Assembly (NCBI GenBank): GCA_002917075.1
Contig: NTMA01000096.1
Span: 1 to 64,000, forward strand
From: Hawksworthiomyces lignivorus
Lineage: Eukaryota; Ascomycota; Sordariomycetes; Ophiostomatales; Ophiostomataceae
Length of the DNA: 64,000 nt
Reading direction: 5' to 3'
Shown here: one piece after another, positions 5,689 to 52,489 of the stretch
How the letters are laid out: the number at the start of each line of letters is the position of its first letter
How positions within the stretch are numbered: position 1 is the stretch's first letter
The notes under the pieces: generated by a model
What the model saw: only the letters and a program-made list of their open reading frames with translations
Database searches by the model: none
Told to the model about the DNA's origin: nothing
Translations under genes and position numbers: made by a program

Positions 5689-5802
5689 AGTCACCAAACT
5701 GTAAACGTGTTTGTAAGATAGAGTGTGTAGACGCCTTGCTATGTGTATGCAAATGAAAAGGAAACTGGTACAGTCTACGACATAGTTTGACTTAAATGAC
5801 AA

Positions 5803-9222: not shown

Positions 9223-9743
9223 TGTGAAACTGCTCCTATATTGGAAATTAAGAGATAGTGAGAAGTGAGAGCGTTCGAAGTTTAACCCACGCCAATTGTA
9301 CCATTGAGAATAATATATTTGGCGGGAACAATGTGGATACTCGGATACATAAATGACGAAAATTTCTCTAAAGCAAGCTCACCCGATATTCCCCTTGTTC
9401 AGCACTTTTCCACCCAGTTGAGCCTCCGGTACTCGAGCTGATTTTTCTTCAAATTTAGACAATGAAGGCTATAGGGCTAGGCAACTAAGAATACGGCAGA
9501 AATGTAGAATCAATACACAAAGAAGATGAAAATAACATTGGCAAACCAGATTTTGCAATTAAGGAAAATGGAACGCTACAATCGTTGGAAAAAAAAAGAC
9601 CCCCGAATATGTACCCACGTAGTCTCTTCCTAAAAAATTCAGTTATTGGTACTTGCATCCTATATGAATTACTATTTTCGTGTTTCTTTCCTGCTTTTAG
9701 TATATCGCTCCCTATAACAAACTTAAGAACTCTCCTAGCTTGT
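9223..9743. other. Intergenic spacer between two pseudogenes
   Basis: AT-rich spacer between the start of the broken GH3 gene and the end of the broken C6 regulator. It is the old promoter region of the glucosidase. No gene is supported here. Confidence 0.5.
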
Positions 9744-11418: not shown

Positions 11419-12354
11419 GGCGGTGTGGGGTTTACGTTAGGAGATGGCTGACACTTGTCTACGATAAGCCTGAGATTGCTGGGTAAATATGGGGATATTG
11501 GTTATTGTAATTGGAGTGGAGTGTCGGGAACAGAACAGATTAGGGGACGCCGAAATGTCGGCAAATGCAAAACCTGCGCGACTGGAACTCTAACAAGATA
11601 CTTTGTAATGCTTTATCAGTGAACGTGTTTTCTGCAGTTCTTTAACTTTTGATCTTGACGCGGCATTTTGAGCCTCTTTCTAACCTTGAAGGTTAGATAC
11701 ACTCAACACCACATAGAATATAGCGAGCTGCCACGACTCCGGGTCAGGGTCGACGTTGGTGGTAAGTATGTCCTAATTAGTCTCAGTTTATCGGAAGACA
11801 AACACTGACGTCATACGTAGGAATAAATACCGATACTGTGGTCTTGGACCCGACGCAGAGTTCGTTATCGTAACGTGACGTGTTGGGCAGTCACAAAACA
11901 CCAACGACACGCGATACGACAATAGGCATTAAAGTCGTTGTAGACTTTGTCTTAACCCAGTGCAGGGTTCATACATCTTAGATTTCGTCTGTGACAGTAG
12001 GAATAACCGTGTTTCTTAATATTATTATAGAACGTAACTGTAGTCGTCTTTTACGAGTTGTCGTCTTACGTATGTCTCGTAGTTTTTTTCGTGACATCTT
12101 ATCTTTTGTAGATTATCGAATAATACTATTTTATTCGTAAACAAAGTCTGTAAACTATTATAGTCACGGGAGTTTATTCGCCCATCGATCACGAGTATTA
12201 ATAAAAAGACACAGTACGACATATCGTGAAACGTGAGATTCCGGACGTTGACGTCGTATGTTCGCATAATATCGCAAATATAAGTACTTCTCTGGATAAA
12301 ACCGACAACCCCGTGTTCTATAACTCACATACTTACATCAAGTTTTCCTCCTAG
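11419..12354. other. Low-coding-potential insert upstream of truncated hydantoinase
   Basis: Contains no gene I can support. The 3' two-thirds is rich in TCG/ACG and TA steps and full of stops in all frames, unlike the exon that begins at 12355. It occupies the place where the 5' exons of the hydantoinase gene should be, so it may be a degraded repeat or a rearrangement junction. Confidence 0.45.
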
Positions 12355-26110: not shown

Positions 26111-27839
26111 TCAAATCATCAACTCTATAGTGCCATCTGTGCCTGGCCTTGGAGCACCTGTCGATTTGTTGCCCATGAAACCTTCTTTTATCAGAGTGAG
26201 CGCACTTCCAAATGGATCCACTGACCCCGCCTTAGATGCAGAAGTCAGACCAGCAGCGTCAAAAGCCTGCTCAAAGTCGCGTTTGATATCGGCGAAATCT
26301 TCGATCCCGACTGAAACGCGAATTAGGTCAGGTGTAACACCACCTTTGATTTTTTCCTCGTCAGGAAGTTGCTGGTGGGTTGTCACCCAGGGGTGAATGA
26401 TCAGCGTCTTCGCATCCCCGACATTCGCTAAGTGCGAGCAGAGCTTAAGGTTGTCAACAACAGCGCGAACTTGGTCAATGTTTCCGGCCTGTCGGTATCA
26501 AAGTTAGGCGGCTGTCATAACGCATGGGTACTTGTCGTTTACAAAAGGATACATACCACACCGAAGGTCAGGACACCACCACCTCCATTCAATTTCTTTT
26601 GGGCGTACTCATAGTCAGAGTGGGACTTGAGTCCGGGATACAACACCCAATTGATACATGGATGAGCTTCTAGCCACGTAGCTAGCATCTGTGTGTTTTC
26701 GCAGTGCCGCTGACCTCGTAAAGAAAGTGTCTCTAATCCTTGCAGGAATAACCAAGCGTTGAAGGGGCTCATACACGGACCAAGATCACGCATGCTATCC
26801 ATTCGCAGCTTGGCTGCTAGCGCCTTGTAACCATATGTATCCCAGAATCTCATACCGTGGTAGCCTTCCGACGGCTCGGTGAAGCCAGGGAATTTTCCAG
26901 AAGCACTCCAATCAAAGTGGCCACCGTCTATAACGATGCCCCCCATTGACGTGCCGTGGCCGCCAATCCATTTAGTGCATGAGTGCGTGACGATGTCGGC
27001 GCCAAGATGGATTGGCTTGCAGACATAGCCACCCATGCCGAAAGTATTGTCCACAATCAATGGAATTCCGTGCTTATGTACTACTTCGGCAATTTCTTGG
27101 ACATCTGGAACACTGTGCTTGGGGTTACTGATTGTCTCAATGTATACACAACGGGTGTTCTCATCGATAGCTTTGTCAATGTCAGCTGGGTTGTTGCCGA
27201 CAACCCATTTGACGTCGATCTTAAACTTCTTCATGTAAACACGAAATTGATTGTACTAAATGGGACGGATTAGCTGTTAACGGTACAGTGTCTGATTTTG
27301 ATGCACTCTTTGAGCAGCCTTTTAAACTCACAGTCCCGCCATACAGCCAGGATGTCGACACAAAGTTTTGACCCGGTTCACAGCATTGGGTGATAGCCAT
27401 GAACTGAGCAGCGTGTCCAGATGCCGCAGCAACTGCACCAACGCCGCCTTCTAACATAGCCATTCGCGTTTCGAAGACCGTGTTTGTGGGGTTACCCATA
27501 CGGGTATACACATAGCCCTCCTTGCTCCATGCAAACTTACTGGCACCGTCTGAGCGATAGGTTAGATATTGCATGGCATTCTTCTCGACCGCCTAACGCT
27601 GTATTCAAAGAAATGAACTTACCAGCCGCATCCGAGAAGTTGTATGCCGCTGTTTGGTACAGCGGAACAGCACGAGAGCCATTTACCGGATCTGGTTCCT
27701 GCCCACCATGGATAGCTATGGTACTGAACTTGGGCTCCCTACAGTAATACGACAATTTGTTAGCAATATGCTCGAAAACCATATCGGTGACACTTAACGC
27801 TCACCAGTCAACGTTGGCAAGAGATCCTGATACAGGCAT
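26111..27839 (-). CDS. O-acetylhomoserine sulfhydrylase-type PLP enzyme
   Basis: Five exons on the minus strand: 27839-27805, 27738-27623, 27549-27332, 27255-26557 and 26488-26111. Phases agree throughout and the product is 481 residues. It is a Cys/Met-metabolism PLP-dependent enzyme of the O-acetylhomoserine sulfhydrylase group (MET17/cysD type). Visible motifs are [29 protein letters not shown] (restored across an intron) and the cofactor-lysine segment [10 protein letters not shown]. Family members displace acetate from O-acetyl-L-homoserine with a nucleophile at the gamma carbon. It is longer than yeast Met17 (444 residues), with extra residues before the C-terminus. Lying beside an acetyltransferase that makes its substrate and an aspartate kinase, it could be a pathway-dedicated gamma-substitution enzyme like FUB7 or LolC. 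A plain homocysteine synthase is the alternative. Confidence 0.92.
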
Positions 27840-28246
27840 GGTGTCTAGTGGCACTATACTGAAAATCAAGAAATGACGACGGAGAGTGTATTTCGAACTT
27901 TTAGTTTACTTGAACTGGTTTCTTTTCATTGACTGGGTGATGAGCAAACCTCGCAATTTATCTTACGGACGAATAGTTTGCTACACAATCTTAAATGCTT
28001 TGAATCATTTCATACAATACACGTATGTGCCCTTGTCTCAATCTTGCCATTTGTCTCTCTCCTGCCTGACTGCGTACGATCGAAGAAAGGTCGGTAGCCT
28101 TGTGGGTCGGGTCCGATAAGACCTCGGGTTTTGGGCTGATAAGGAACAAACACCGGCTAGTCCCCACGCAGGCCAGAGGCGTTGCTAAAATAAGGTTAAA
28201 GACCATTTTGAGTGGCTAAGTTACATGTATAAGAAGCTGCTAGTAC
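27840..28246. promoter_or_regulatory. Upstream region of the PLP enzyme; candidate C6 site
   Basis: About 400 bp between the start of the PLP enzyme and the end of the C6 regulator, both on the minus strand. It contains TCGGGTCCGA at about 28107-28116, an inverted CGG pair with a two-base spacer, a plausible Zn2Cys6-protein site. No experimental support is available, and such pairs also occur by chance. Confidence 0.3.
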
Positions 28247-31021
28247 TCATATCTGTGTTTCCCCCACTATGAATGGATCGATAGCGCCACGAATCTGATC
28301 TGCAAACAAAGTCAGTGGCCGAGATATCGGTACAAATTGGTCTGATAACAATTTCAGATCGCTGCGGGGTCGACGGTAAAGCTTGCAGATAAAGATACCA
28401 AAAAGGTCACTCACCGCGCATCCCGCCGAGGGCTTCAAATGCCGTTGCATAGTTCTCAAGGGTGGCCGAGATAGAGGTCAGCCCACGCTGCAGCTGACTG
28501 AGAAGACTGTCAACCAAACGGCTGCTAGTTCCGCTCTGAGGGTACATGGTCTTGGTCTTGTCGTGCACCATCAGCAGCGCGTATGCGCACTGCATAGCAC
28601 AGCAAGCAAACGAGGGCATTGTCCTCGGAGAAATGATGCTTGATGTAGTCGAAAGATAACAGGGTGCCTCACACGGCTGACCACTTGGATTGGGGAACGG
28701 AAGCTCATCAAAAGACTGTGCGATGTTGAGCGCCGATTTGAGACAGATCTTAGCCGATTGGTGGCTGCTAAAGGTAAACGCCGAAGTCATGCTGGCCATC
28801 GGTACTGGTATCTCTCGCGAGTCATCGGACCGTGGCGTACTGGCACCAGTGGTTCTAGATGATGGAGTTGTCTCTGTGCTACCAAAGGAGGAACACGAAC
28901 AAGATGGCCACCGACGTGGCTCCTCTATACCGTCCTTACCGTGTTCAGTTTTAATAGAGTTGAGGTCGCAGTGCTTCTTTGAAAACACTGGGACATCAAA
29001 GAACGCACAATAGCGATGCACTTTAATTCTCGCACTGTACCAATATATTGTTAGCTCTACGTCTCTCTAATGTGGAAATATAACGCAGTCTCTCTCAGAT
29101 AAAATGAACCCTTACCTATTTATTTTGATGCGGGCCATGCAACGTAGAGACCGTGAGAGCACTTCCTCAGAAGGATCCATTGGAGACGTTACAGACGATG
29201 CTAGGTTCCAAGACTCAGCTTGGTCATTGAAGGCACTTAGGAACACCTCAAGCTCTTGCATCCTATCGAAAATGCGTGTCATGTCTGCATTGGAACTGAC
29301 GGCTTTGTTGAGCTCAGCGACAAACTGAGTTGCACCTAGGATAGCCTGTTGTGCCTGGATAAATTGTGTGAAAGCCTGATATTATATGTTATAACTTGTA
29401 CATTTCAAAAGGTCAGAATTGCTAAGGGGGACAAAAGACGAACCTCTGGATCAGATTTTAAGGTCGGAAACTTCTGAGTAAAACTTGGAGAGAAAACCTC
29501 AAAAGTTGGCTTCTTTATATAAAATTCGTCAGCTGTCTGACAAGTAGAAAAGGGAGCAGAAGAGCTTACTAAACCACTGACGATCGAGCTTTGGCATACA
29601 CAGACGTACTACATAACCTCAATTAGTTGAAAGGGTTTCAAAGAGTTGGACTTATCGTGACATACAGTCATCCACCAGACTCGTCGCTTAGCCTCGGCAG
29701 ACATATCTTCCTCGCTATCCAAATGTAATGACCGAGCCATAGCTGCGATCAAGGCCTGCCCAGCTCTAGCCTGCATCCTTTTCATGTTCCCTCGCTGTGC
29801 GTATTCATAGACGCTGAGAATGTCTAGGGCAGCAATAGACTCGAACTCTGTCGGGAAACTATGGTGGAAAGGGGTCCGAGCCACCTCTTCTGTTATCTCA
29901 AGTGCCCGCTGTGGCTCAGTAAAGGAATCTGGTATTTCGGTCTCCATCTCGATGCTCTCTAAGGCAGACTGGGCAAGGTATTGAGAATACGTCCTCCGGA
30001 ATACAACAGATTCACGGCTCGAGTAGTTCATGTCGTCCGCGCATGGAATCAACGCTAAAATTGCTGAAATTGCGAGGCTAAGTGGAGATGAAGACTTGAT
30101 GTCCTCTTGGAGTTCATCAGCTTGACTCTGGAGTCGAAACTGAGATTGATCTTGAGGTGTGCTTGTCGGAGGCGGTAGGATAGGGAAGAATGGATGAATG
30201 TGTATATAGTATCCATCTAGTCTTCAGTTGTCCGCATTGTTATTATATTATTTGCGTATCTCCAGCATAAAGAAAAACAAAAGGAGACGAGCTTTTATCT
30301 CACATGGCACTATCGCAGTTGTATGTTCGCACCATTGGGGAGGAAACACACGGCGATGCTCTTGCAGGGTCTGATGTGTTATCCCCAGTAACCTTTCCCA
30401 ATGTTCCTGGCATGAAAAGAGCGTCGAAAATGACGTCACTATCCTCGAACCAGTCCTGGAGCTGTGCTAACCCGGCGCCGGGATCAATGTAATTTTGTAT
30501 AGCTATGGCTGTAGGAGTGATACTTAGCGTTGTGGCTCTAACGCAAAAGTTTGTGGTTATAATCTTACGCTCAAGGGGAGTCTTCTGCGTCACTTCATCT
30601 AGATATAAGTCGGTGTTTCCACTCAACATATCAACTTCAACTGTAACAGCAGCTTCTCGAGCGATGCTGTGCTTCTTGCGTATTCTAGCGCCTCCGCGGC
30701 GACTCGGACGGTATACACATTCGCATGCTCGATTCTTGCACTGCATGGAGGAATATTAGCCTTTCGGAATGGCATCATAATAGAATATGTGCTTATCAGG
30801 CCGCCTACAGTGGCACATGGACGGCCCCCGTCGCACCTCGTCCTGGACGCTCGGCTTTGTGAATATCTGTGAGTGTGTCACTTCTTGGTTAAAATCAATG
30901 TGAATGGAATGACTGCTTACCATGATAAACAAGCAATCTTGACCGGAGGTGTTGCAAATTTCTTTTTCGTGACACCCAAAGATGAAGGCATCATGGCGGG
31001 TGCTTCTAGTTGAGGAGTCAT
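28247..31021 (-). CDS. Zn2Cys6 transcription factor, nine exons (candidate cluster regulator)
   Basis: Minus-strand exons: 31021-30921, 30854-30809, 30740-30304, 30221-29666, 29608-29570, 29536-29444, 29375-29116, 29034-28415 and 28299-28247. All phases agree and the product is 734 residues. The DNA-binding domain is split over three exons; joined, it reads CLSC, RASRTRC, DGGRPC, ATC, KNRACEC, i.e. C-x2-C-x6-C-x5-C-x2-C-x6-C, followed by the basic RPSRRGGARIRKK. The middle region has YYIHIHPFFPILPPP and RRVWWMTYVCVCQSS, typical of the fungal-specific TF domain. The protein ends GGMRDQIRGAIDPFIVGETQI. It sits between the PLP enzyme and the nitrilase, so it is the natural candidate regulator of the 26-39 kb gene set. 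The first two exon borders are the least certain. Confidence 0.88.
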
Positions 31022-32173
31022 GGTGCTGTACAAATTGCGCACCGAGGGCCGTATCAGCTATTGGTTCTGTATTGGAGGAGTCTCAAATATAAACTAAACG
31101 CAATTCTAGCAGATCAGACAATAATATGAAGCTTCAAAATGTATGCGTGTATCATGCACAATGCGCTGCCTATCGTGTGAGATTGGCAAGTGCCAGATAT
31201 TTCGACTCGTGTGGGAAGCATGTTCTAATGAACTCTCGAAATCTCGATTACTTGGGAACAGAGAGGGGTTACTTACAGCTACCTGATGTGCTGTAGGAGC
31301 TCTTTAATCAGCTGCACTAAAGCCCGCTCTTTTCCTGAATTGCGATTGCATAGGTACACGCTATCTAGTAGTATTGTGGCGCAGCCACACTGTCTTATCG
31401 CCGTCTCCTTCAGTTAGGACTCGAACCATGTCTAAACTTCTACACTCAAGTAATATAGAGCAGTGTAAGCCAGGGAAATCCAAAGGCGTGCCGTGGTTTG
31501 GACAGTAGAAGATAACTGAGAGGCTACTTTGTCTTGGTCACAGGAACAGCTACTAATTAACAGATGCGAATTGTGGCCTTCTCCAAACCAGGCCCATTCA
31601 TATCGAAGGCGGTCTTACCAGTTTCTTAATGCCCGCATTGACGACATCTCACTCTGATTATTTCGCTCAATGCTATGTGCAATTGCGCATGGCAAAACGT
31701 ACGATAATTGTGGGGCTTAATTTTGCGATGAATTTTCTCCAGGAAACCCCTCAGTTATCAAGTTCAACGGCTAGAAGTCTGGCGGATAGAATGAGGCAAC
31801 GCACTTGTTTATTATGTTTACTAAATTACGTCTGACCTACGCCTTCTAATATCTTGTTTTGAGGTACGCATTTTTATTTTATGGCATCTGACCAAATAAC
31901 TCTGCCCCGAATAACTACTGCCACCACGCAGTATTTGTGATCGTGTTCTACTATTTATCCTCTGTCTTTTCCTTTCCTTTTTTTTGGTTTTTTTTTTTAA
32001 AAATAAAAAATAAAATAAAAATAGCCCAGAGAGCGCAAATGAGCTTTAAATTCATCCATATACATATCCTGGACTTTCGGGTAGCACAACGAAAAGACGA
32101 CTCTTAGCAGAGTAGCAACTCTACGACTTTGATAAGCCACGATCCCCCATGCTGCTACCAGAAAGCACAAAAA
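31022..32173. other. Intergenic region, no gene seen
   Basis: 1.15 kb between the nitrilase end and the regulator start, ending in a T-rich/A-rich run near 31970-32025. It holds the promoter of the C6 regulator. A 68-codon frame at 31629-31835 has no domain. Confidence 0.5.
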
Positions 32174-33602
32174 TTATGAGAACTGAACGTTTTCCCCCGA
32201 CTTTGTATTCACAGTCAAAGTGCTTTGAATTCGGTGTTAACATATTAGAGAGCCACAACACAGCCTTAGTTATATGACACTTACAAGACGTCTGGGCGAG
32301 AGTAGCTGCCCACTGGATCAAAGTCCATCTACCAAGGAGCGTCAACATTGGCCCACGTTTATTTTCATTCTCAATGTGAGAAGGATTTACCCTGGCTTCT
32401 TTTATATCTGATCTTTTTAAGTCTGCATAGATGATGGCCTCCTTATCCCAGACGGGCTCAGCAAGGAACTCTCCAAGCGGACTAACAATGCAAGATCCGC
32501 CGTGATTAAGAATATCTTCCGGTATCCACCGAGATCCATCGGGCTTGCGATCGTAATGTCCAGACGTGAAAGGCGGATACTCGGGAGGAAAATCAGAAAC
32601 TTTATAGACAGAGTTGACTGACACAACAAAGCATCGACCCTCCTTTGCGATGTGCTGTATTGTCGCCACCCATGTTGTAAGGTCGTCCGCGGTAGGTGCT
32701 AGATAGATTCTAAAAAGTGATTTAGCCATGTTCCAGTGCGAGAAGGAAGTGCTCCAGTGGCCTGGATTGGTAACTTACTCAACGCCTTTCTGGTACAATG
32801 CCATCCGAGCTGCAGGCATATAGTTCTCCCAACTCAATCCAATTTCAGTATATCATGTTTCACAATAGCCAATTTTTTCAACTGCATACTTACCATATTA
32901 AGCCCCCCACTTTGCCCAACTCCGTGTCCGATACCTCCAGTCCATCTCCAGCACCTCTTCCCCATACGAGACGCTCTGCGGCGGTAGGTATAAGCTAGAG
33001 CATAACATATTAGTTGCATAAACCATCGTAGTCGACAATTAACCGAATGCAATACCTTGCGGTGCTTATAGAGTAAAGAACCATCGCGGTCGAAGAGAAT
33101 AGACGTGCAGTAGAGTGTTCCTCCTTCTTTCTCGATTATGCCGACTTGAAGAAGAACGTGATTTCGCTTGGCGGTCTGTGATAATCCATTGAACTCAGGT
33201 GACGGAATGGCAACGGCTGAGTCGTAGTACTTGGCGAACCACTTCCGTCCTTCACAGCATAGTCAGGCTTAACTCACTTAAAACATAGATACGAGTGAAG
33301 AGTATGGGGAGAGAAATACCTCTTGGCTCACGTGCGCCAACAGTCGCATCGAAATTGTATCTCCAAGGGTACGCCGATAAAAATGCTTCGCTGCCGTTGT
33401 TAGGTGAAAATTGCCCAGCACTTGGAAATACAAGGGGGAAGGCGTTCCAAAAATAGACTTACGGGAATACAACTAAGTCGGCACCGGCTGTAGAAGCCTC
33501 TTCTGTGAGAGTCCGAAGCTTCTCGAGACTTTTGCTAAGATCAAATGCAACTGGGGCAGCCTGCACGGCGGCGACTCTTACAATCTCTTTCTTATAGCCC
33601 AT
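32174..33602 (-). CDS. Nitrilase (carbon-nitrogen hydrolase), eight exons
   Basis: Minus-strand exons: 33602-33463, 33390-33320, 33249-33056, 32994-32894, 32832-32779, 32709-32391, 32328-32285 and 32222-32174. All phases agree and the product is 323 residues, normal for the nitrilase branch. The catalytic triad is present: Glu in VVFPEAF, Lys in LYKHRK and Cys in GGLICWENYMP, each restored across or beside an intron. [11 protein letters not shown] and the C-terminal [11 protein letters not shown] are also family-typical. Nitrilases convert nitriles to acids plus ammonia, or sometimes to amides, in the cytosol. It is divergent from the homoserine acetyltransferase, about 650 bp apart, and may share its promoter. 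A nitrile made by the neighbouring PLP enzyme is an attractive but unproven substrate. Confidence 0.93.
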
Positions 33603-34253
33603 ATTCGAGTTCTAAATGAGATGGGAGAATCACAAGCAGTCAGTAGATTGGCAGATTAGTAGCAGGTGATGAGCTTCAACTTTGAATACTCGGAGGAGAT
33701 GTCCCTGTTTTGAGGTTCCTAGCTTATAATTGGCTTCTCCTTATCAATTTGCTCCCAGAAAGAGGTCCGTTGAATACACTGGCGGTGGCATCTCGTACAA
33801 GCAGTCAAGAGCGGGGAATTCCGCCAAAGAGCGTCTTATTCCTCCAGACGCCGCGCATATCCAGTGTTTTGAGTCAAATCCCGATCAGGGTGCCAACGCC
33901 GAACAATGCTAGAATTCTTATCTCCATAGACCACAAAAATATCCAACTATACGTGGCACGTAATAGTCTCGGTTCATAGACATTTGATTGTCACAGAAGG
34001 CCTCGTGCGATTGCTCTGTTGTTTGAACACCAAATTAGCTACTATGAGGATTGTCCGCGGCGAGGTCGCGACACAGACTCACGGTTTCTTTTAAAAGAAA
34101 AATGATATAGTGTATTGATCTAGTACTATTGCTCTGGAAGTAAAAAGAAACACTATCCTCAGCCAAACCGTCATAGCTCTTTTTCATGACCCTGAAAAAT
34201 GACTCGCATCTTTCACACATAGGCACGCCAGTGTTGCATAACCATCTCTAATT
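33603..34253. promoter_or_regulatory. Shared intergenic promoter between nitrilase and homoserine acetyltransferase
   Basis: About 650 bp separate the two divergent start codons. Near the acetyltransferase side lies a GC-rich patch with CCGCGG at 34055-34060 and TCGCGA at 34066-34071. The arrangement would allow co-regulation. Whether these motifs bind the neighbouring C6 regulator is inference. Confidence 0.4.
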
Positions 34254-35622
34254 ATGGCTACAGTTCGTAAGTCTTTGATAGCTGGCGTCGTATAAGACAT
34301 CCCTTAGTATCTAACAATAACTACTTATTATAGTCCTTAATGACAACCCGTGCCCCGAGAACATATATGCGAACCTGATATTTGATCAAAAATTCGCTGT
34401 AATTGATTGCCTTCGGTTAGAATCTGGCGACACTCTCGTGGAATGTCCTATCGCATACAAGACATGGGGTCGATTGAATGATGCTGGGAATAATGTTATA
34501 GTTATTTGCCACGCTCTAACAGGCAGCAGTGATGTTGGCGACTGGTGGAAGCCTTTGATGGGTCCTGGGAAAGCTTTTGACCCGCAACATTTTTTCATAT
34601 TCTGTGCCAATGTGCTTGGCTCTCCTTACGGGAGCGCTTCGCCCGTCACCAATGACCCTCGGACAGGAAAACCATACGGCCCTGACTTTCCACAGACGAC
34701 AATTAGAGACGATGTACACGCACAGAAACGAATTCTGGACACCCTTGGTGTCACATCTGTTGCGGCTGTTGTCGGTGGATCAATGGGCGGGATGACCACG
34801 CTGGAGTGGCCACTGTGCACGTCTTTTGGTTATATCAGAAATATCATCCCCATTGCAACGGCAGCTGACCATAGCGCCTGGGGTATTTCGTGGGCCGAGA
34901 CACAGAGACAGTGTATCTACTCCGATCCCAGGTTTAAAGATGGTTACTATGAATCCACTCCGGAGGGTCAGCCTTCCGCCGGACTGGCTGCAGCACGAAT
35001 GATTGCCATGCTCACATACCGTTCGTGCACGAGCTTTGACAGCCGATTCGGACGAAAACCACGACAGCTCATTCCTACACAGAAGACAGATGCCTTGATT
35101 GAGAAGACCGAAAATGAGGCTAGGAGGCACGAATCACCGAAAGAAATCAAAATGAATAGAGTTATGTCTTTCTCTGCTCAAGGCTATCTTCATTATCAGG
35201 GCGAGAAGTTTGTCAACAGATTTGACGCAAACTGCTATCTCCATCTAATGAACAAGATGGATAGTCATGACGTGGCCAGAGGCAGAGCTGCCAAGAGCGA
35301 GGGTGACGCTCTGGGAAGGATTTTTGAGCTTGTCCCAAGTGGAGCACTTGTGGTTGGCATTGAAACCGACGCCTTATTTCTTCCCATCCAGCAAGAAAGG
35401 CTATGTGCCCATTTGCCTGGCTCGACACTCGAGATTGTTGGCTCTCCTAGCGGCCACGATGGCTTCCTTCTGGAATTCGAACAGCTGAACAAGCTCATAC
35501 AGCTGAAATTGCGGTCTGCAGTGCCAGAATTCTACGAAATAAGTAACGTATTGGAGATGAATAAATATGAAGATAGCACGAAGGTAGATAGTCTGACTGG
35601 AGAAGAGGAGAAGTGGTGTTGA
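34254..35622 (+). CDS. Homoserine O-acetyltransferase
   Basis: Two exons: a 13-nt first exon, 34254-34266 (ATG GCT ACA GTT C), and 34334-35622. The product is 433 residues. It is an alpha/beta-hydrolase-fold acyltransferase of the MET2/MetX family that uses acetyl-CoA to make O-acetyl-L-homoserine. Visible are CHALTGSSDVGDWW, the nucleophile elbow GGSMGGMTTLEW, TAADHSAW, the catalytic Asp in GIETDALF and the catalytic His in SGHDGFLLE. Its product is the substrate of the PLP enzyme encoded at 26-28 kb, and its own substrate branches from the aspartate kinase product, whose gene follows on the same strand about 850 bp downstream. It could be the primary methionine-pathway gene, but it is more likely a cluster paralogue (compare FUB5) given the context. 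Confidence 0.94.
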
Positions 35623-36473
35623 CAAACTCTAGATTAGATGGGAATGATAAATTTTGGCTTTAATAATTTCTTTCTGCAGCAGTTGCAAGGCAACCAGCGC
35701 TGTTACACAGAGAGATACAATTCGTTTCTAATCTAATAACTCCAGTAGATTGATCAAATTTACCTTTGCGTTCTATATTTATATAATCACTGATTCAAAG
35801 CACCTAAGCCTCAATAGTTACCATTCTTGAGTGCACGCCAGTTCAAAGGAAGCCAGTAAACTCAAAGGGCTTTACAAAGTGCTCGAGTAACAACCCGGAT
35901 TAATGCTTCCATGCACCATATTGTTCTACCGTCTACGCTATTAATAGCCAATTAACAATGAAATTAGACCTTCGAAGTGTTTCTAGCTATCTCATAAAGC
36001 ACTTGAACATGATCTGCTACCAAATACTAGTCGCTTCGAACCCCGCCGCAACTCACCCAATCCTTCCAAAGAAATCTGCGAAAACTATATCCCGCGGAAA
36101 CCTATCTACAACATGGAGCAATTGACTTCAAATCCCGCGTCAGTATCTATAGCCAGCCCACCCATCCATGCCACCAGTTTGACCTATCGTTTGGCAGCCA
36201 TTGAGGGAAAAAAAAATGTGTACTAGTTTTGAAATGGTTTCGTGATTAAGCTAAGTGATAAGAACTCGTAGTCTACTCTGATATTCATTTTCTAAGACTC
36301 AATTCCACTTTCCTAGGAATATAAGCGTCCTAATGTCTCTTTGAATCATACTTTCACGGCAACATTTCTCGATGCATCTCATCTACAATTAAACATCGAC
36401 TCAGTACAACGTGGTATAATTACATTTCTCACATACGGTTCAGTGCTAGATATTCTACATTTCGGTAGCTGCA
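35623..36473. promoter_or_regulatory. Upstream region of aspartate kinase
   Basis: About 850 bp between tandem genes. It holds a CCGCGG at 36092-36097, also seen in the nitrilase/acetyltransferase intergenic region, and is otherwise AT-rich. No gene is seen. Confidence 0.35.
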
Positions 36474-38599
36474 ATGGTTTCTACTATTATTGTAGATTCG
36501 AGACCTTGGCTAGTACAAAAATATGGTGGCACAAGTCTTGGAAAACTATTAAATGTGATAGGCGAGAATATCGTCCCTTCATACTTGCAGGAACACCGGT
36601 TGGCCGTTGTTTGCTCTGCTCTTTCCGGGATAACTAAGGCCACAGGAACCACTAGCCTCCTTCTCAAGTGCATCGCTTTTGCCGAATCTGGCACTAGCCT
36701 CCGGGCAGAACTTCATCAGACCATGGATCTCATAAAATGTAACCATTTCAAGATACTAGAACGATATTTCTCCATGGCTAACACTACGCACGGGGAACTT
36801 CATCAAAGCACGCGAGATAGAGTTAATGGAGAATGTGAAAGCCTGCGGCAATATTTACTCGCAGCACAAGTAAGTCCTTCGAGTATGCTTCAGAGCAGTG
36901 CATGTATGCCAATTTAGCTGCTGATATTTCATCCTTATTAGATCGTCGGAGAACTATCTTCAAGATCTAAAGACAGAGTCATATCATTAGGCGAGAAGCT
37001 AGCAGCCATCATTGTCTCTGCATTCTTCACATCAAAGGTAAATCCACGACTGAAATCTAGTAGAAGTCACAAATCTAACAACGTACAGGGCATTCCGTCA
37101 ACAGTTATAGTACTTGATGATCTAGTTGAATCTGTCTTTGGTTCTGATATCTATGAACAAAGATTGCAGTTCAGTAATCTTTACTCTAGGTTCTACCAGC
37201 ATCTAGCCGTTGAGATTGGTCGTAAAATACGGTCTACAGGGGATTGTATTCCAGTCATCACAGGTACACAACGATCAACCATATAGCTTCAAGCTAAAGA
37301 AATGAAAACTCATGGTATATTAGGTTTCTTTGGAATCATGCCCGATTCACTTATGAAAATGGTCGGAAGAGGCTACTCGGATTTGTGCGCTGCGATGTGT
37401 GCTCTCGGCATTGGAGCTATGGAGTTACAAATATGGAAGGAGGTCGACGGTGTCTTCACCGCAGATCCTCGAAAGGTTCCATCAGCTAGGCTATTATCTA
37501 CAGTTACGGCGGAGGAGGCGGTAGAGCTAACTTATTATGGGAGTGAGGTTAGAAGGCAATGCAAACCCTTGGCTGATGGCTATGCTCAGGCTGACTAGAA
37601 CTCTAGGTGATTCATCCACTAACTATGGACCTAATCCGATACGATAACATACCTCTTCGATTGAAAAATGTATTCAATCCCTCTGGACAGGGGACAATCA
37701 TTTACCCATCATACATGACTTCGACCGCACTGGGCCCATCGTCAGATCTTTCAGGCTCTTCGGTCCTCGAAGCAGAATTAAAAACAGAACCAAAGAACCT
37801 TAGCCCTGGATTCATGCTTAAGAATGGGTATCACGGAGAGAAGCAGGAAAGGCGAAACCCCACCGCTGTTACTGTTAAGGATACCATTGCTCTGGTCAAT
37901 GTTGCATGCAACCGAAATATACGACTACGAGGCTTCTTGGCCAATGTATTGACGAGCGTAGAAGAAAATGACGTCACGGTAGACTTGGTGACAACGAGTG
38001 AGAGGAACATAAGTCTCGCCATACATGCTTCCGAAGATACAGATGCCGAGGAAAAAAGGATAATTACTGGACTTGAAAAATTCGGCAAGGTACAAGATTG
38101 CCTATCCAAGAATTATTACTAACGTGCAAATACTAATTTAAAATGCCAAAAGATTACATTCGCCAGAAACATGTCTATTGTGACAGTCGTCGGGCAAAAG
38201 ATGAGAAATATGGTTGGCATCTCAAGTAAGTTTTAACAATGCCCACCCGCCGCCAACGCAAACTAGCACTGACACGATTAAGGTGAGATTCTATCGGCAT
38301 TAGCATCGGCTAAGATCAACATTTATCTTGTTAGTCAAGGAGCAAGCGAGATAAGCATTTCGTATGTGCACCATAACTGGTATGTGTACACTTGTTGTTC
38401 ATACGACTAACTAGATTTTAGGCTTGTTGTGCGAGCTGAAGATGCTGTTCTTGCCATAAATATGATCCATGGCCAAGTCCTTGGAATACCTACGCACTGG
38501 GAGCAGGAACACAATTTTATAAGAGGTTAGATTCTCTTGACTTCCTAAGTAATTCATGGCGCTGACGCAAATGTAAACATAGGACCTTGGTTATATTAA
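36474..38599 (+). CDS. Aspartate kinase, nine exons
   Basis: Exons 36474-36869, 36942-37037, 37089-37263, 37324-37547, 37607-38089, 38153-38225, 38283-38361, 38422-38525 and 38583-38599. Phases agree throughout and the product is 548 residues, close to yeast Hom3 (527). The kinase domain shows VQKYGGTSLGK, RVISLGEKLAA, VITGFFG, VGRGYSDLCAAM, WKEVDGVFTADPRKV and YYGSEVIHPLTM. Two ACT-type regulatory repeats follow, with VTVDLVTTSERNISLAI and INIYLVSQGASEISIS. It phosphorylates aspartate, the first step to homoserine. The normally conserved CSARS near residue 48 reads CSALS here, which could matter for activity or control. In this context it probably supplies homoserine for the neighbouring acetyltransferase (compare FUB3). 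Its many introns differ from the compact neighbour genes outside the cluster. Confidence 0.93.
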
Positions 38600-38819
38600 T
38601 TGTACGTGCTTGCTTGGATGGGGGGACTTTTGACACGCTGTGATCAATTTCACTTAGGACGAGCAATTCCGATACCAGAACTTGTACTCTGCTGGGTAGA
38701 GAATTTAACTCCAGTGTATTTAATATATTTGACTAACTACTAAAATAATGTTCTAATAATTCTAGGTAGTTTAACTTCTCTTCTTCATCGAATCAAAACG
38801 AGAGCATATAGTAAAGCGT

Positions 38820-39602
38820 TCATGAAGCTTGGAAGGTCATAGCAGCTTCTAGAATGATACTGGCTGTGCACTTCGGTCTGCTTAGCATTGGCGAATGTCC
38901 TGATTCAATTTCCCTTATAGATACCCCCATTGGATTGCGTTCTTGGATCAGAGCTGCCATTTTTTGCTGTGACAACGGAGGAATTGTTTGGTCGTTAGTG
39001 CACACAATATAGTAAACAGGTACATCGGTCCACCCAGTGTATATACTCTCATGTTTCACCCTAGTGCTCGACGAATGCTTCAAAAGACGGCTCGCCCAAA
39101 TCTTAGCGTCTTCAGGATCCATATCCTGGTATAACGCCTCACCTGGATCTTTCGTAAAAATGTCCCAACCCTCTGGACCCGGAACCACGATGGGCGTCAT
39201 GCCTATTTTGCCGATCAGAAACTCTCGTAAGTCAACATCGGATGGTATAGTCATAGCACATATTTGAACGATGCCAACCACTCGCCCGCTCGCACCTGGG
39301 GAAAGATTGGACGAATCGACTTCAGTGTAGCCTTTCACTGCACTGCACCCCACCACCCCACCAAAAGAGTGATTGATAACCACCACGTCACGCCCGACTG
39401 ATGTTTCTGCACTGATGATGTTCTTGACTTGGTCGATGCAGGGTGCAATAGACTCTACCGGTGTCTCAGTTCCACAGAAACACACTTGAGGCGAAATTGT
39501 TTTGTATCCATTTGCCTCAAGATCAGACACAACGCGCTCCCAGACTTGATTTGAATGCCATGAGCCGTGAATAAGGAGTAGCGTGGGTTTTGATGTCGAC
39601 AT
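38820..39602 (-). CDS. Alpha/beta hydrolase (esterase-like)
   Basis: Single exon, 260 residues, convergent with the aspartate kinase (220 bp between stops). The fold shows LLLIHGSWH (oxyanion loop), the nucleophile elbow NHSFGG in place of the commoner GHSFGG, the catalytic Asp in CTNDQTIP and the His in ESGHSP. It resembles the small methylesterase/hydroxynitrile-lyase-like group rather than the FSH1-type serine hydrolase found as FUB4. It is probably a cytosolic esterase or lactonase. Its place in the homoserine gene set is by position only. A CACGTG E-box lies about 130 bp upstream at 39732-39737. Confidence 0.85.
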   Translation of the reverse strand: MSTSKPTLLLIHGSWHSNQVWERVVSDLEANGYKTISPQVCFCGTETPVESIAPCIDQVKNIISAETSVGRDVVVINHSFGGVVGCSAVKGYTEVDSSNLSPGASGRVVGIVQICAMTIPSDVDLREFLIGKIGMTPIVVPGPEGWDIFTKDPGEALYQDMDPEDAKIWASRLLKHSSSTRVKHESIYTGWTDVPVYYIVCTNDQTIPPLSQQKMAALIQERNPMGVSIREIESGHSPMLSRPKCTASIILEAAMTFQAS

Positions 39603-40812: not shown

Positions 40813-43800
40813 CTACCATAGTGCCTTTTTCCCTTTTTCAGCAAATAAATCCACGATTCCTTTCTTCCTTGTCGCTACTGCGATATCAATAGGTGTCCTC
40901 ATTTTACTATCCTCCTTCTTCGGATCAAGCCCCAGCTCTATAAGCTTCTTAAAAGTATCAATCACATCTTTGACTTGTTCTCGGATTGTGTAGTGGTCTT
41001 CCACGTGTCGCAGTGCTGTGGCGTGCAACAGTGTGGCGCCGGCGCCGTTCGTTGTGAAGAGATCTGCACCTGCTTCGATGAAAAGCGGCAAAGCATTGCA
41101 GTGGAACACATCATTCTCTATCGCTTGAGACGTATGGTTATCTTTGCTCAAGGGACCACGCATGATGCTACAATTAGCAGATACAAACACGAAAATAGGT
41201 GTCTCTCCTTTTTTATTGTGGGCATTTACATTCAAGCCCATGTCGAGAAACTTTCTAAACAGTGCGGCTGCATCCGACACAGCTGTCCTCTCTCCTACTA
41301 GACGACCTGCGAGAAAGTGTAGTGCAGTGTTACCATCTGGATCCGGCTCCAATAGAGATGCGCCGTGATCAAGTAAGTATTGTGTTGTCCAGTCAGCATG
41401 GGACCGCAGAGAGAGGTGGATAGGTTTGCACCCCTGGTTGTCTTCGAGGTGAATGCAAGATGAGTCACGAGTGAGCAGCTGTCGCACAACATCTTTGTGA
41501 CCCTTATCGAAGGGCTGGGTCATTGTACACAGCCAATGCAAAGGCGTTCTGCCTAGATCGTCAGCGACATGGACAACGGCACCTCGCTCAAGAAGCGACA
41601 GTGCAGCTTCAGTATGAGCTATTTTAGGCAGCTCTTCGTCGTTGCGCTTAGGTGGATTTTGAGCCAGAGGTGTCGGAATGCACGCAGATAAAAGAAGGGT
41701 GCGTTTCCCTGTACCTCTGCGTTCGCTATCAAAGTTTTTGCTATCAAGCATTGGCCCGACTAAACCATGCTGTTCGATAATGCACTGTAGAGCGTGTCCA
41801 CCATTGGCGTAAGTACCAAATATGTCTGCACCGTACTCAAGGAGAAGCTTCAGAATGAACTCTCGCCGGGCTTCCCAATTTGGTGGCTTATTTGCCGGTT
41901 CCTTATTGAGCCACCGGGTCGCAGCATTATGGATGGGAAACCGAATATCCGACTTCCCGTTTCTCTGGCCATCTACCGCTGACGCGAAGTTGGGATCTGC
42001 GCCTGCTTCGAGGAGCAGTTTCACCATGTCGATATCCAATTCCTCGATAGCGTGATTCAAAGCGTCGGGAGCACGACTTACGTCAGCTCCGTGTTCCAGC
42101 AACAGGCGCGTCACCCTCGCATGATCAGACATAGCCAAGGCGGACAGCCTTGATTTGACACCGATGGCATTTGGATCCGCGCCGTGACGAAGGAGAACTC
42201 GGATGGTTTGCTCTTTCCAGAATCCAGACGGATGTGTTGGATTTGCCGCCACTAGGAGAGGCGTTTCGCCATCGAGATTCAGCGCCTCTAAATCGCCACC
42301 ATGCGCTAGTAAGTATTCCAGCGCTCCGATATGCCAGAACTGGGTACCACAGGCGACAATATGTATAGGCGATGCTTTCTTTAGCTTGTATCGAAAGCCA
42401 CGGACGTGAGATGGGCGATTAACATCCAGATTAACATTCTCCACAAGCACGCGGATCACTTCAAGATTTGGGTCCCCACGCTCGCACGCAGTACCGAGTA
42501 TCGTGCCAGGTCCACCACTATCATGTTGATCTTCTTCCTCACTCTCTCTGTCTTTATTCCTCCGATGCTCGACCTCATCATCTACCTTTGACACTTCGGC
42601 GCTGAAATGTTCAAGTAGCCTTACTTGCCCCAGCGTCGCTAATTTGTGAAGGCCAGTGCTGTTGTTGAATCTGTCTAAAGCGAAAAGATCTCCACCAAGA
42701 CGAGCAAACTCCTTTATAACCTCGTGTCTGCCGCTACAAACTTCGTTGGCAATCCTTTCAGGGATAGCGGCAGAATCATCAATGTTCAGAAGGGATTGGA
42801 CAGCTTCAGTAAATTCGGCCTCCTCTGTCGTGGTCATTGTTATTGGTGTTGAGCTCGTATCTGCCACTCGAGACAGTTCTTTGAGAAATTGAGCAAAATT
42901 CGCTCGAATTGCTATATCAGCTGGGCTGATTTTCGACCCAGTCGCATCTAGAGCCTTGGCGTTAAGATCTGCGCCAGCCCTGTGCAAGAGGTCGATGATT
43001 TCAAAAACACCATCTCTAAAACCATCCCAAGACCGGTTGTACGATCCACGCCAGACGGGTTGACAACGTCCTGGTTTTCTAGAACCCCATAGCTCATCTT
43101 CGTGGGGGTACTCTGCCACCGCGTGCAGAGGAGTAAACCCCATGAGGTCCCTAGAGGTCGGACTTGCACCGTGTAAGAGTAAAGCTCTGACGCTTTCTTG
43201 GCAACTGGAGCGACAAGCATAATTCAATGCGGTCCGTCTGCTCTCTTTATCGTTGTCCTTTAATCCAAGAAACTGATCAAGAACCCCCAGTTGCTTATAG
43301 GATGCGAGAAGAACCTGAACAACACCTGGCTGTAGCGCTCTACAAGCGATATGCAATGGGGATATTCCCTTCTTTGTAAGTTTTGTCGGATCCGCCCCGG
43401 CTCGAAGCAATTTGCCAACGGCGAACTCAGACACGGATGACGCTCTGTGTAGAGGCGTAACACCTTCATTATCACAGGTATTAACGTCTGGAGCTCCAAA
43501 GATATGATTAGTCATTATAATATCAATCCACTCTTCTGAGGTCGAAGAGTGATCTTCAGGTTCTGGACGTTCCCCACAAGCGATATGGAGTAGCGTCTGC
43601 CCTTCGGTGTTGGGCTCTGTAAGTGACACCCCCAAATCAGTGAAATAGTCTATTAGCTTAAGGCTCTCGGGTTTGAAGTTTGACGTTTTTATAACCAAGT
43701 GTGCCAGAGAATTGCCAGCTTCGTCGGTAGCTAGAGGATCCACGCCAGCTGAAACGAAAAATTGGAACCACTCTATCGAGCGCCTTTTACGTACAGCCGA

Positions 43801-46800
43801 ATGCAATAGCGTTGTGCCGTCATTAGCCCTCACTGTAACATCCGCTCCCAATCGGATAAACAAATCAAGCGATTCCAGCTTTGCGTCGTACTCGTTGACG
43901 ATTTTCCATAGGATTGTCCTGCCATTATCGTCACGAACATTGATATCCAACCCATTCTGAACAAAAAATTTCATCAATCCCTCATCAACTAGCTTGCCTC
44001 TGTACTTGAATAGCGGGATGACACCATTGTTGTTTCTCCTGTTCAAATCAGCCCCGGCACTAACAAGGGTGGTGAAGAAAGGCAGATCCTTTAATTTGAA
44101 GCTGTGCAAAGTTGCGAAGATTTGGTGGAAAATAGTGTTGCCATCGAAATCAGCTGCATTGATGTCGGCTCCATTGTTTATCAGGCTATGGAATAGTTCA
44201 ATGTCAAGCTTGCCCTCATGTGCGTTACCTTCCATTATCAGCCTAAGAAGTGGTGTCCTCCCGCTCGATGCTCTTGCATTCACGTCCGCGCCGAATTTCA
44301 CGAGAAGGTCAATTAACCCTGGGCTTGTCGTATCGGCATAGAAAAGAGGCGTCCCTCCTTGTTTTGTTTTTGCGTTGGGGTTAGCCCCAGCACGAAGCAG
44401 CATGCCTGAGAGCAGCTCTGGAGTTCTGTCGCCACTATCCTTCCACCCTAAAATATCCCTCTTTTTTTGAACGGCGTAATGGAGAGGAGCGAAGTTCGCG
44501 TCCTGGCGGCTGTTAGAACCTCTGGCATCCCCATCTGTCGTAGTATTCACGTCTCCACCGTGGTCTAGGAGCAGTTGAAGACATTCTTCTGCTGCCTTCT
44601 CGCTATCGGCGCTATATATCTTGGGCCCTCCATTGTACCCAGCAAATGCATGAAGTGGGGTTGGACCTCTAGGAGCATCAAACTTCAGCGACACTATTCC
44701 GCTGCTATCCCAATGACGTCCGCTGCATCGCTTGTTGGGATCAGCACCGTACTTGAGCAAAATTCGCATAGTGTCGACATGATGCAACGCTGCTGCTTGG
44801 AAGAGCAGTGTCTTCCCGTCACAGAAGGAATCTACTGCGGCATGCCCCGTTCGTAGGATTGCTTCGATACTTTCACCGTCCCGTGCCCAATGGAGGCACT
44901 TGTTTGCATCTTCAGAGCGTATCAAGGGCAAAAAGGCATATATTATGTCCATATTTTTACTTCCCATGGCGTGCTCAAGAGCAGTCTCACCGTGGTCGTA
45001 TATATAAAAGTGGCAAACGTTATAAGGAGTGTCTTTGGTCTTTTCTATGAGAGGCGAGACACCAGCATCCAACAACAGCTTGACCACGACTACATCTCCG
45101 TGTGTAGCATAGTGAAGTGGTGTCAGACCGAGTCGATCATCAGATCTGGGGTCTGCACCGGCGTGCAATAACGCCGCAACAATCTCAGAGAAACCCTTCT
45201 CTGCCGCATAGGACAGTGCAGTTCGTCCATCACCGTCGCTAATATCAAGAAGGGCAGGTTGTACGGCGATCAAATGCTTAACATACGGTGTCAATCCTGT
45301 GAACGCTGCCCAGTGGAAAATGTTGAATGTACTGCATAAGCGCGAACCCCAAAACCGCATCATCCATACCCCAAAGGCAGGCCGATCGCGGTCGAGATAC
45401 AAGTCAAGAGCTTTGATGAGCTCAGGATCGCCCTCTCTGGCTTTGGATATATGAAGAGATAGATTATCGACGGCATACATCATCAGAGGATGATCCAACT
45501 GCAGGCCTTGGAGAAGTTGCTTTCTCCGTTTCATCTCTTTTGCTTCGTCTCCAAAATCGTCGTACTTGTCATAATTTTCATCGCCAGGAATATCACAGTT
45601 GGTATCAAGTAGTGGGCAGCCATCCAGATACTGCATTGACGAATCTGCCAACATTTTGTGACTTTGCAAGGAATCCAACACGGGAAATGCATCCCATTGA
45701 TTTCTACTATTGTCGCCGAGAAATTCAGTAAAGGAATGGTGTATCACACTAACACTTTCATCCTCTAGTATCTCGAGCAAGCGGCCGCAACTAGCACGGA
45801 TCAGCTGCTTGCCTCTACTCAGGTCATCATCTCCGCGAAGACGTGCAATCAGAGCTCCAAGTTCAATCAGGCGAAGCGGTCGAGAAGCATGGATGACACA
45901 GCTCAAGATGGCTGCCTGTTGATCCTTGCTGACCCCACTCCTTCTTGCATGCTCTCTAAGCATTTCCTCATAGACTTCTTTGAGTGTCTTTGGAAGGGCT
46001 TCAAGACAGCCTGGCAACATCTTCTCGGTGATCTGGGCATCTTTGAGGCCTTCGGTTAGATTCTCTGTCATAAGACGCGCGTGAAGAAAGAGGCCCTGGG
46101 CTCTTTCACAGATAACCTGCTTAACTAGGTCTTCTACTTCGGGGCTCAGCAGTGGCTCCAGTGTACCCATGCTGACGCTGACATATTTAGCGACATCTGG
46201 ATATATGCATGTCGCATCCAGTCTTGCTTGCCGCACACGTGGCCTTTTAAGCGCCTCTTCAATCTTCGGAATGGGTCGACTGGTGAAAATAATTTTGAGG
46301 CTATCTGGGCGCCGGTTCGCAACTGTCATAAGACGATTAACAATGTCAAAGTCCTCTTCATCCATCTCGTCCAGTGCATCTACTACGCAGTAAACCTTTG
46401 GCGCCTCTTCAAGACCTTGGACGATGATATCCCACAGACCGACTAGCTCCGTGCCATCGACGCCGCGCGATTTGCTGAGTTCCTCAATCTTGGACATGAG
46501 CATAGGGCTGTGGGGAAGAAGCTGAGCAGCAAAGTCACGGATGAGATATTTGGAGCTGTGGTTCTTCTCAACAATCTGACGGAAAAAGAAGAAGAGCACC
46601 GGCGTGCTTGGCATGGATTCTTGAAGCCGGCGAATAGTGCTAGCTGCAAGAACAGACTTCCCGCAGCCGGCGACACCTCTGAGATGAAGGCAGCTAATCT
46701 CTGTCGACTGAGCCCATTCTTTGAAACTGTATGACTCGTATATCCATGTCCCAGTGCCAGGCACGTGTGCGTGCAAGTGTTTCACGTACTCATTGCCGGG

Positions 46801-46974
46801 CGAGAGGTACTCAGTGGGATGGAGCCATTGCCGCAGTGTTTGAATGCGCAACTCGAGCGATGTCCCGGCCGGAGTTTCTGTTCCAGGCACAATATCCCGT
46901 CTTATCACGTCGAAACTTTGTTCGAAGTTGGCATCCTCCGTTTCCGACATGGCTTCTTTCATATCTCTCTCCAC
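40813..46974 (-). CDS. NACHT-ankyrin STAND (NLR-like) protein, 2053 residues
   Basis: One uninterrupted 6.2-kb frame. Residues 1-70 are a short head without a recognised effector domain. A NACHT-type NTPase follows, with P-loop GVAGCGKS at about 100-107, Walker B VYCVVDALDE near 194-203 and sensor FTSRP near 230. A helical linker leads to ankyrin repeats from about residue 550 to the end; typical units read DGRTALSYAAEKG and LGLTPLHYATHGD, interspersed with HAGADP and NNGADINAAD. I estimate several dozen repeats. Family members are signal-transducing NTPases, and some act in non-self recognition and incompatibility. Inference: a cytosolic sensor whose repeats bind ligand. An upstream exon carrying an effector cannot be excluded. 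It is intact, while the neighbouring STAND gene is destroyed. Confidence 0.93.
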   Translation of the reverse strand: MERDMKEAMSETEDANFEQSFDVIRRDIVPGTETPAGTSLELRIQTLRQWLHPTEYLSPGNEYVKHLHAHVPGTGTWIYESYSFKEWAQSTEISCLHLRGVAGCGKSVLAASTIRRLQESMPSTPVLFFFFRQIVEKNHSSKYLIRDFAAQLLPHSPMLMSKIEELSKSRGVDGTELVGLWDIIVQGLEEAPKVYCVVDALDEMDEEDFDIVNRLMTVANRRPDSLKIIFTSRPIPKIEEALKRPRVRQARLDATCIYPDVAKYVSVSMGTLEPLLSPEVEDLVKQVICERAQGLFLHARLMTENLTEGLKDAQITEKMLPGCLEALPKTLKEVYEEMLREHARRSGVSKDQQAAILSCVIHASRPLRLIELGALIARLRGDDDLSRGKQLIRASCGRLLEILEDESVSVIHHSFTEFLGDNSRNQWDAFPVLDSLQSHKMLADSSMQYLDGCPLLDTNCDIPGDENYDKYDDFGDEAKEMKRRKQLLQGLQLDHPLMMYAVDNLSLHISKAREGDPELIKALDLYLDRDRPAFGVWMMRFWGSRLCSTFNIFHWAAFTGLTPYVKHLIAVQPALLDISDGDGRTALSYAAEKGFSEIVAALLHAGADPRSDDRLGLTPLHYATHGDVVVVKLLLDAGVSPLIEKTKDTPYNVCHFYIYDHGETALEHAMGSKNMDIIYAFLPLIRSEDANKCLHWARDGESIEAILRTGHAAVDSFCDGKTLLFQAAALHHVDTMRILLKYGADPNKRCSGRHWDSSGIVSLKFDAPRGPTPLHAFAGYNGGPKIYSADSEKAAEECLQLLLDHGGDVNTTTDGDARGSNSRQDANFAPLHYAVQKKRDILGWKDSGDRTPELLSGMLLRAGANPNAKTKQGGTPLFYADTTSPGLIDLLVKFGADVNARASSGRTPLLRLIMEGNAHEGKLDIELFHSLINNGADINAADFDGNTIFHQIFATLHSFKLKDLPFFTTLVSAGADLNRRNNNGVIPLFKYRGKLVDEGLMKFFVQNGLDINVRDDNGRTILWKIVNEYDAKLESLDLFIRLGADVTVRANDGTTLLHSAVRKRRSIEWFQFFVSAGVDPLATDEAGNSLAHLVIKTSNFKPESLKLIDYFTDLGVSLTEPNTEGQTLLHIACGERPEPEDHSSTSEEWIDIIMTNHIFGAPDVNTCDNEGVTPLHRASSVSEFAVGKLLRAGADPTKLTKKGISPLHIACRALQPGVVQVLLASYKQLGVLDQFLGLKDNDKESRRTALNYACRSSCQESVRALLLHGASPTSRDLMGFTPLHAVAEYPHEDELWGSRKPGRCQPVWRGSYNRSWDGFRDGVFEIIDLLHRAGADLNAKALDATGSKISPADIAIRANFAQFLKELSRVADTSSTPITMTTTEEAEFTEAVQSLLNIDDSAAIPERIANEVCSGRHEVIKEFARLGGDLFALDRFNNSTGLHKLATLGQVRLLEHFSAEVSKVDDEVEHRRNKDRESEEEDQHDSGGPGTILGTACERGDPNLEVIRVLVENVNLDVNRPSHVRGFRYKLKKASPIHIVACGTQFWHIGALEYLLAHGGDLEALNLDGETPLLVAANPTHPSGFWKEQTIRVLLRHGADPNAIGVKSRLSALAMSDHARVTRLLLEHGADVSRAPDALNHAIEELDIDMVKLLLEAGADPNFASAVDGQRNGKSDIRFPIHNAATRWLNKEPANKPPNWEARREFILKLLLEYGADIFGTYANGGHALQCIIEQHGLVGPMLDSKNFDSERRGTGKRTLLLSACIPTPLAQNPPKRNDEELPKIAHTEAALSLLERGAVVHVADDLGRTPLHWLCTMTQPFDKGHKDVVRQLLTRDSSCIHLEDNQGCKPIHLSLRSHADWTTQYLLDHGASLLEPDPDGNTALHFLAGRLVGERTAVSDAAALFRKFLDMGLNVNAHNKKGETPIFVFVSANCSIMRGPLSKDNHTSQAIENDVFHCNALPLFIEAGADLFTTNGAGATLLHATALRHVEDHYTIREQVKDVIDTFKKLIELGLDPKKEDSKMRTPIDIAVATRKKGIVDLFAEKGKKALW

Positions 46975-52408: not shown

Positions 52409-52489
52409 TGCGAGATGGCTTCAGAAAGGCACCGATGATTGCAGCTTGGAGGTTGTGTCTTGCAAGTTGACGGGAGTCGTGGGGGGTCG

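Follow-up and report, generated by a model that had tools for sequence, protein, structure and literature searches.

Plant β-cyanoalanine synthase is a homologue of cysteine synthase, and together with the nitrilase NIT4 it provides a pairing of PLP enzyme and nitrilase whose logic the locus described here seems to share. The PLP enzyme of the locus is of the O-acetylhomoserine type, unlike the plant synthase; moreover, the genes for acceptor supply sit inside the cluster and the product would contain an additional carbon. Nitrilases resembling those of plants are also found in fungi. The characterized homologues NitTv1 and NitAb, like the nitrilase of our locus both fungal and plant-nitrilase-like, are best on β-cyanoalanine according to the available sections of PMC7503981, in which the word ‘homoserine’ has zero occurrences and no homoserine-gene cluster is mentioned. 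In Pseudomonas, the available part of PMC11049912 describes a Nit4 nitrilase for 3-cyanoalanine within a cyanide-resistance cluster (cio-nit4); this system differs in being bacterial, in including a cyanide-insensitive oxidase and in that ‘homoserine’ is absent from the text of the paper. An excerpt of a review names hydration of cyanide as the only mechanism to be conserved among the fungi that are pathogens of cyanogenic plants (PMC8120277). Finally, the cluster for fusaric acid (FUB) likewise combines an aspartate kinase, a homoserine O-acetyltransferase (HAT), an O-acetylhomoserine PLP enzyme, a C6 regulator and a hydrolase (PMC6738028, in extract). It differs from our locus in that its PLP enzyme, FUB7, is nearer to primary MET17 than to the PLP enzyme described here, and in that our locus has no polyketide synthase (PKS) and has a nitrilase.

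Here, we analyse six neighbouring genes of Hawksworthiomyces lignivorus. The window, i.e. the whole stretch of DNA that was analysed, comprises the 64,000 nucleotides at the start of contig C188 (assembly of 43.7 Mb in 191 contigs). The enzyme families are known ones in a recurrent combination, and our searches of open-licence PMC papers showed no description of this cluster.

Gene content of the locus

All six genes that an earlier note on this DNA had proposed at 26111-39602 are present, and profile searches agree with its family assignments. The note also held all six to be intact. Gene models built by GT-AG intron splicing gave uninterrupted frames for the PLP enzyme, the HAT, the aspartate kinase and the hydrolase, whereas the last exon of the nitrilase was placed by eye and the intactness of the regulator is likely rather than proven.

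The PLP enzyme (26111-27839, minus strand; splice model of five exons, 481 aa) scores 590.6 bits against TIGR01326, the O-acetylhomoserine sulfhydrylase (OAHS) subfamily model, above the curated cut-off of 495.1; an enzyme of this subfamily would be predicted to use sulfide as nucleophile. Among solved structures, a homocysteine/cysteine synthase gives its best match (513 bits, compared with 492 for FUB7). The adjacent Zn2Cys6 transcription factor (28247-31021, minus strand) has a complete Zn2Cys6 motif and matches Zn_clus above the cut-off (30.7 bits) and Fungal_trans just below it (20.9 bits, cut-off 23). Its model is uncertain at intron 3, for which several acceptors keep the frame, and at a 33-nt ‘intron’ that is itself in frame and may not be an intron. 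The nitrilase (32121-33602, minus strand) has eight exons and about 318 aa, the short last exon being added to seven computed ones (307 aa).

According to the gene models, the nitrilase and the HAT have a common divergent promoter region (33603-34253, unstranded) with a CCGCGG motif at 34055-34060. This motif occurs in three of the five promoter regions, a weak enrichment (reached in two of 200 shuffles, with three motif classes tried), and 13 times across the whole window, where 9.7 are expected; the two other motif classes and common 7-8-mers in the promoter regions were not above chance.

The HAT (34254-35622, plus strand; splice model of two exons, 433 aa) is of the MetX type, with 354.8 bits against NF001209 (cut-off 331) and 423.4 bits against the other MetX model, TIGR01392, which is below the cut-off of 500. 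The aspartate kinase (36474-38599, plus strand; splice model of nine exons, 548 aa) scores 295.9 bits against TIGR00657 (cut-off 208.7) and matches the Pfam families AA_kinase and, in its C-terminal ACT region, ACT_9; a 59-nt intron accounts for a seeming break near 37.58 kb. Its second ACT motif reads GISSEIL, compared with GVAGKMF in the primary copy, a difference that might alter feedback inhibition. The sixth gene (38820-39602, minus strand) encodes an intronless α/β hydrolase of 260 aa (Abhydrolase_6, 80.9 bits), which is a member of the cluster by position only. We considered this hydrolase as a hydroxynitrile lyase (HNL), a reading that seems doubtful: matches to HNL variants and SABP2 are weak (37 bits at best), and its motifs HG, HSFGG and GHSPML look esterase-like, whereas the active site of an HNL would carry a Thr and a Lys at characteristic positions. 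The single-sequence structural model is poor (mean pLDDT of 44.2). No PKS, nonribosomal peptide synthetase (NRPS), oxidoreductase or exporter was found among the six genes by family searches.

A NIT4-type nitrilase

The closest solved structure to the nitrilase is plant NIT4 (PDB entry 6i00), with 300.9 bits and 48.5% identity over 309 residues, the next being a bacterial nitrilase (PDB entry 3wuy, 162.1 bits); a cyanide hydratase scores 102.5 bits. NitAb, for comparison, shares about 40% identity with NIT4 (PMC7503981, in part). The catalytic Glu-Lys-Glu-Cys tetrad is kept (Glu48, Lys135, Glu142 and Cys169). In addition, Thr139, Arg67 and an alanine 25 residues past the cysteine match, by counting, pocket positions given for NitAb and NitTv1 in the same source, as far as it is available. 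The enzyme is of the NIT4 type, and activity on β-cyanoalanine would be predicted. The earlier note was right in expecting the nitrilase to imply a product other than that of FUB, and the likeness to NIT4 points to a cyano-amino acid.

Accessory copies and a separate PLP lineage

The three homoserine enzymes of the cluster are not the sole copies in the genome. A second OAHS, likely to be the primary MET17, lies on contig C13 (56.6% identity over 364 residues, its main part), a second HAT, likely to be the primary MET2, on C101 (51.2% and 50.4% identity, in two pieces) and a second aspartate kinase on C106 (37% identity). These copies are likely to be the primary enzymes of the homoserine pathway, and the set in the window therefore forms an accessory cluster, as the earlier note had supposed in reading these genes as specialized copies. 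The nitrilase family has many members in the genome, those outside the window being 25-49% identical over parts of their length.

A kinship between the PLP enzyme and FUB7, which had also been suggested, finds no support in the PLP tree. This tree comprises 109 sequences: 105 of the 120 listed matches (420-559 aa), the window enzyme, the MET17 of the same genome, FUB7 and 8ovh. Here, the window enzyme belongs to a distinct clade of 21 sequences (support 100, branch length 0.45), whereas FUB7 pairs with the MET17 of H. lignivorus (support 97), the branches of FUB7 and 8ovh being long. FUB7 thus seems to derive from an ordinary MET17, and the window enzyme to represent a lineage of its own. Its relatives of 67-88% identity, among the matches listed, come from Fusarium solani, Grosmannia, Daldinia, Hypoxylon, Paecilomyces, Nemania, Lepidopterella, Rasamsonia and others. 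A search for an active-site signature gave eight positions specific to the clade; none of them could be tied to a nucleophile.

The HAT of the window groups with those of Sporothrix curviconia and Thozetella (support 99) within a set of 80 sequences (support 99), outside which the primary MET2 falls on a long branch flagged by the tree program. The nitrilase falls with sequences from these two fungi (100/99) within a set of 94 fungal sequences (100/100), inside which, in our reading, the order largely follows taxonomy. This pattern is more in line with an old inheritance followed by losses than with a recent arrival. Nitrilase and HAT distances are correlated over 19 taxa (Mantel r of 0.77, 0 of 2000 permutations), a correlation to which shared ancestry must contribute.

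Linkage in other fungi and in bacteria

We then compared the linkage of the nitrilase, HAT and PLP genes across fungi, using the 120 best matches each for the nitrilase and the HAT (one per 90% cluster) and the top 31 for the PLP gene; three more PLP sequences of 67-71% identity (P0062, P0076 and P0118) lie outside these 31. One contig is given per protein cluster, and contigs of identical size from the same organism in two lists were taken to be the same contig. Among the matches listed, at least 18 contigs are common to nitrilase and HAT, at least five to nitrilase and PLP gene and at least three to PLP gene and HAT. Four of the common contigs, from Colletotrichum sojae (18,715 bases), Lepidopterella (20,183), Sporothrix curviconia (53,573) and Rasamsonia (99,514), are so short that a common contig implies clustering, whereas those of more than 1 megabase are weak evidence. 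Locus tags are consecutive for HAT and nitrilase in Pycnora (M1827_002181 and 002182), and nearby for HAT and PLP gene in Daldinia EC12 and for nitrilase and HAT in Hypoxylon CI-4A. The gene combination thus recurs in other filamentous ascomycetes as regards the nitrilase, HAT and PLP genes. On the other hand, for five of the 17 named organisms of the PLP clade (Fusarium solani, Grosmannia, Hypocenomyce, Seiridium and Nothophoma) no nitrilase of the same genus is among the matches listed, and many Xylaria nitrilases are listed with no Xylaria HAT. These gaps are only suggestive of absence in those fungi, because the lists hold best matches, one per 90% cluster.

A bacterial counterpart was also sought and, beyond one case, not found. 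Among the 80 best bacterial NIT4-like loci (of at least 584 relatives), the stored flanks include a PLP gene of the superfamily at two loci (50.6% and 33% identity) and a HAT, kinase or hydrolase of the window type at none. One of these two looked striking: in a Chloroflexi MAG (locus L093, positions 349-8190), a MetA-type homoserine O-acetyltransferase, an OAHS and a NIT4-like nitrilase lie within 8 kb, together with a more distant glutamate dehydrogenase. Of 301 Chloroflexota genomes, this one included, 27 have such a nitrilase (E up to 1e-70), 134 an OAHS (E up to 1e-100) and 11 both. Among these 11, nitrilase and OAHS are found on one contig within 5 kb only in the genome of L093, the others being on fragments that give no distance; with no second case, the arrangement in L093 may be due to chance.

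A putative cyanide-capture pathway

Our preferred reading, tentative and to our mind not far short of an even chance, is that the accessory cluster produces O-acetyl-L-homoserine when it is needed and captures a small nucleophile with it, cyanide being the likeliest. Together with the housekeeping dehydrogenases for aspartate semialdehyde and homoserine, the additional aspartate kinase and HAT would raise the level of O-acetylhomoserine; the presence of these two extra enzymes implies this compound as the acceptor. The PLP enzyme would then swap the acetoxy group for cyanide to give γ-cyano-α-aminobutyrate, which the NIT4-type nitrilase would hydrolyse to glutamine and glutamate; we found no description, in the literature searched, of NIT4 acting on this C4 homologue of cyanoalanine. 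The Zn2Cys6 protein would turn the gene set on, and the α/β hydrolase may have some accessory role. The bacterial OAHS of Omura (2003; a title cited in PMC9317851, and a table entry) belongs to the same enzyme family as the window PLP enzyme, although it is bacterial and no gene cluster is given for it in these sources; going by that title, it reportedly forms γ-cyano-α-aminobutyrate. Azide can also be taken by an OAHS (PMC6271081, in extract). With an enzyme family that takes small nucleophiles and a nitrilase of the cyanoalanine type, the simplest pathway would be from aspartate via O-acetylhomoserine and γ-cyano-α-aminobutyrate to glutamine/glutamate. The nucleophile, the order of the steps and the regulation are what this proposal adds to the observed gene content, motifs, second copies, PLP lineage, linkage and likeness to NIT4.

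The main rival reading is that the cluster makes a specialized amino acid without cyanide: the PLP enzyme would join O-acetylhomoserine to a different C, N or S nucleophile to form a non-protein amino acid, which the nitrilase and the hydrolase would tailor or detoxify. This explanation, which we consider somewhat less likely than cyanide capture, is built on the logic of FUB3/FUB5/FUB7 (with the gene functions given in the available part of PMC6738028) and would suit a Zn2Cys6 regulator, a subtelomeric place and a nitrilase that is absent from some relatives among the matches listed. It sits less well with the NIT4 type of that nitrilase and with six genes that include no PKS, NRPS, oxidoreductase or exporter, a content that favours a short route, albeit one from which a simple non-protein amino acid could still result.

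It is unlikely that the cluster is a back-up supply of sulfur amino acids, making homocysteine or methionine under some condition next to a nitrilase with a role of its own in plant nitriles. The PLP enzyme does exceed the OAHS subfamily cut-off and has a homocysteine/cysteine synthase as its top solved relative, but primary copies exist, its clade is well apart from the primary enzymes and the nitrilase is linked to the HAT or PLP gene in other fungi. A fusaric-acid-type cluster or its remnant is highly improbable despite enzyme classes like those of FUB3, FUB4, FUB5, FUB7 and FUB10, since FUB7 falls with primary MET17 and away from the window enzyme, no open frame in the window save a NACHT-ankyrin one has the size of the PKS (FUB1) and no nitrilase is among the 12 FUB genes (PMC6738028, in the part available).

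Returning to cyanide capture, it is a fair possibility, though one that we put forward with caution, that many filamentous ascomycetes have a dedicated cyanide-fixing cluster that makes its own acceptor and converts O-acetylhomoserine and HCN via γ-cyano-α-aminobutyrate and a NIT4-type nitrilase to glutamine/glutamate. If so, fungi would have, next to cyanide hydratase, a second cyanide route that mirrors the cyanoalanine pathway of plants with one carbon more, and in plant-associated fungi the genes for HCN assimilation would be clustered. Even with another nucleophile, this is an O-acetylhomoserine cluster that recurs and whose PLP lineage lies apart from FUB7, and hence a source of γ-substitution enzymes; it leads to predictions that can be tested in Colletotrichum, Hypoxylon and Sporothrix.

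Subtelomeric setting and flanking DNA

The contig starts with telomeric (CCCTAA)n repeats (1-87, unstranded; period 6, 15.2 copies in a tandem-repeat search), seen as a TTAGGG pattern on the minus strand, and the six genes lie 26-40 kb from this telomere. The flank had been described as mostly pseudogenes, which we could not confirm: it has long open frames with good Pfam matches (for example, of 802 and 484 codons). The stated lack of a PKS or NRPS agrees with our data, in that the sole open frame of such size is the NACHT-ankyrin one; the Pfam scan covered 20 of the 141 flank open frames of at least 80 codons. To the left of the cluster (19-26 kb), two open frames were scanned and gave no Pfam match.

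On the right, the cluster is bordered by an open frame of 2067 codons (40816-47016, minus strand) with an NPHP3_N/NACHT domain and many ankyrin repeats, which is NLR-like. Further on (49679-52420, minus strand), successive open frames match TPR, AAA_16 and patatin, and may together form another NLR-like gene that ends in patatin. Towards the telomere, the 802-codon frame (3418-5823, minus strand) combines an amine-oxidase domain with an FAD/NAD module that resembles ferredoxin reductase. Two adjacent open frames at 7389-9378 (minus strand) correspond to the N- and C-terminal domains of a GH3 glycosidase, with an intron or a break between them, and two others at 12324-14647 (plus strand) to Hydantoinase_A and S-Me-THD C-terminal domains.
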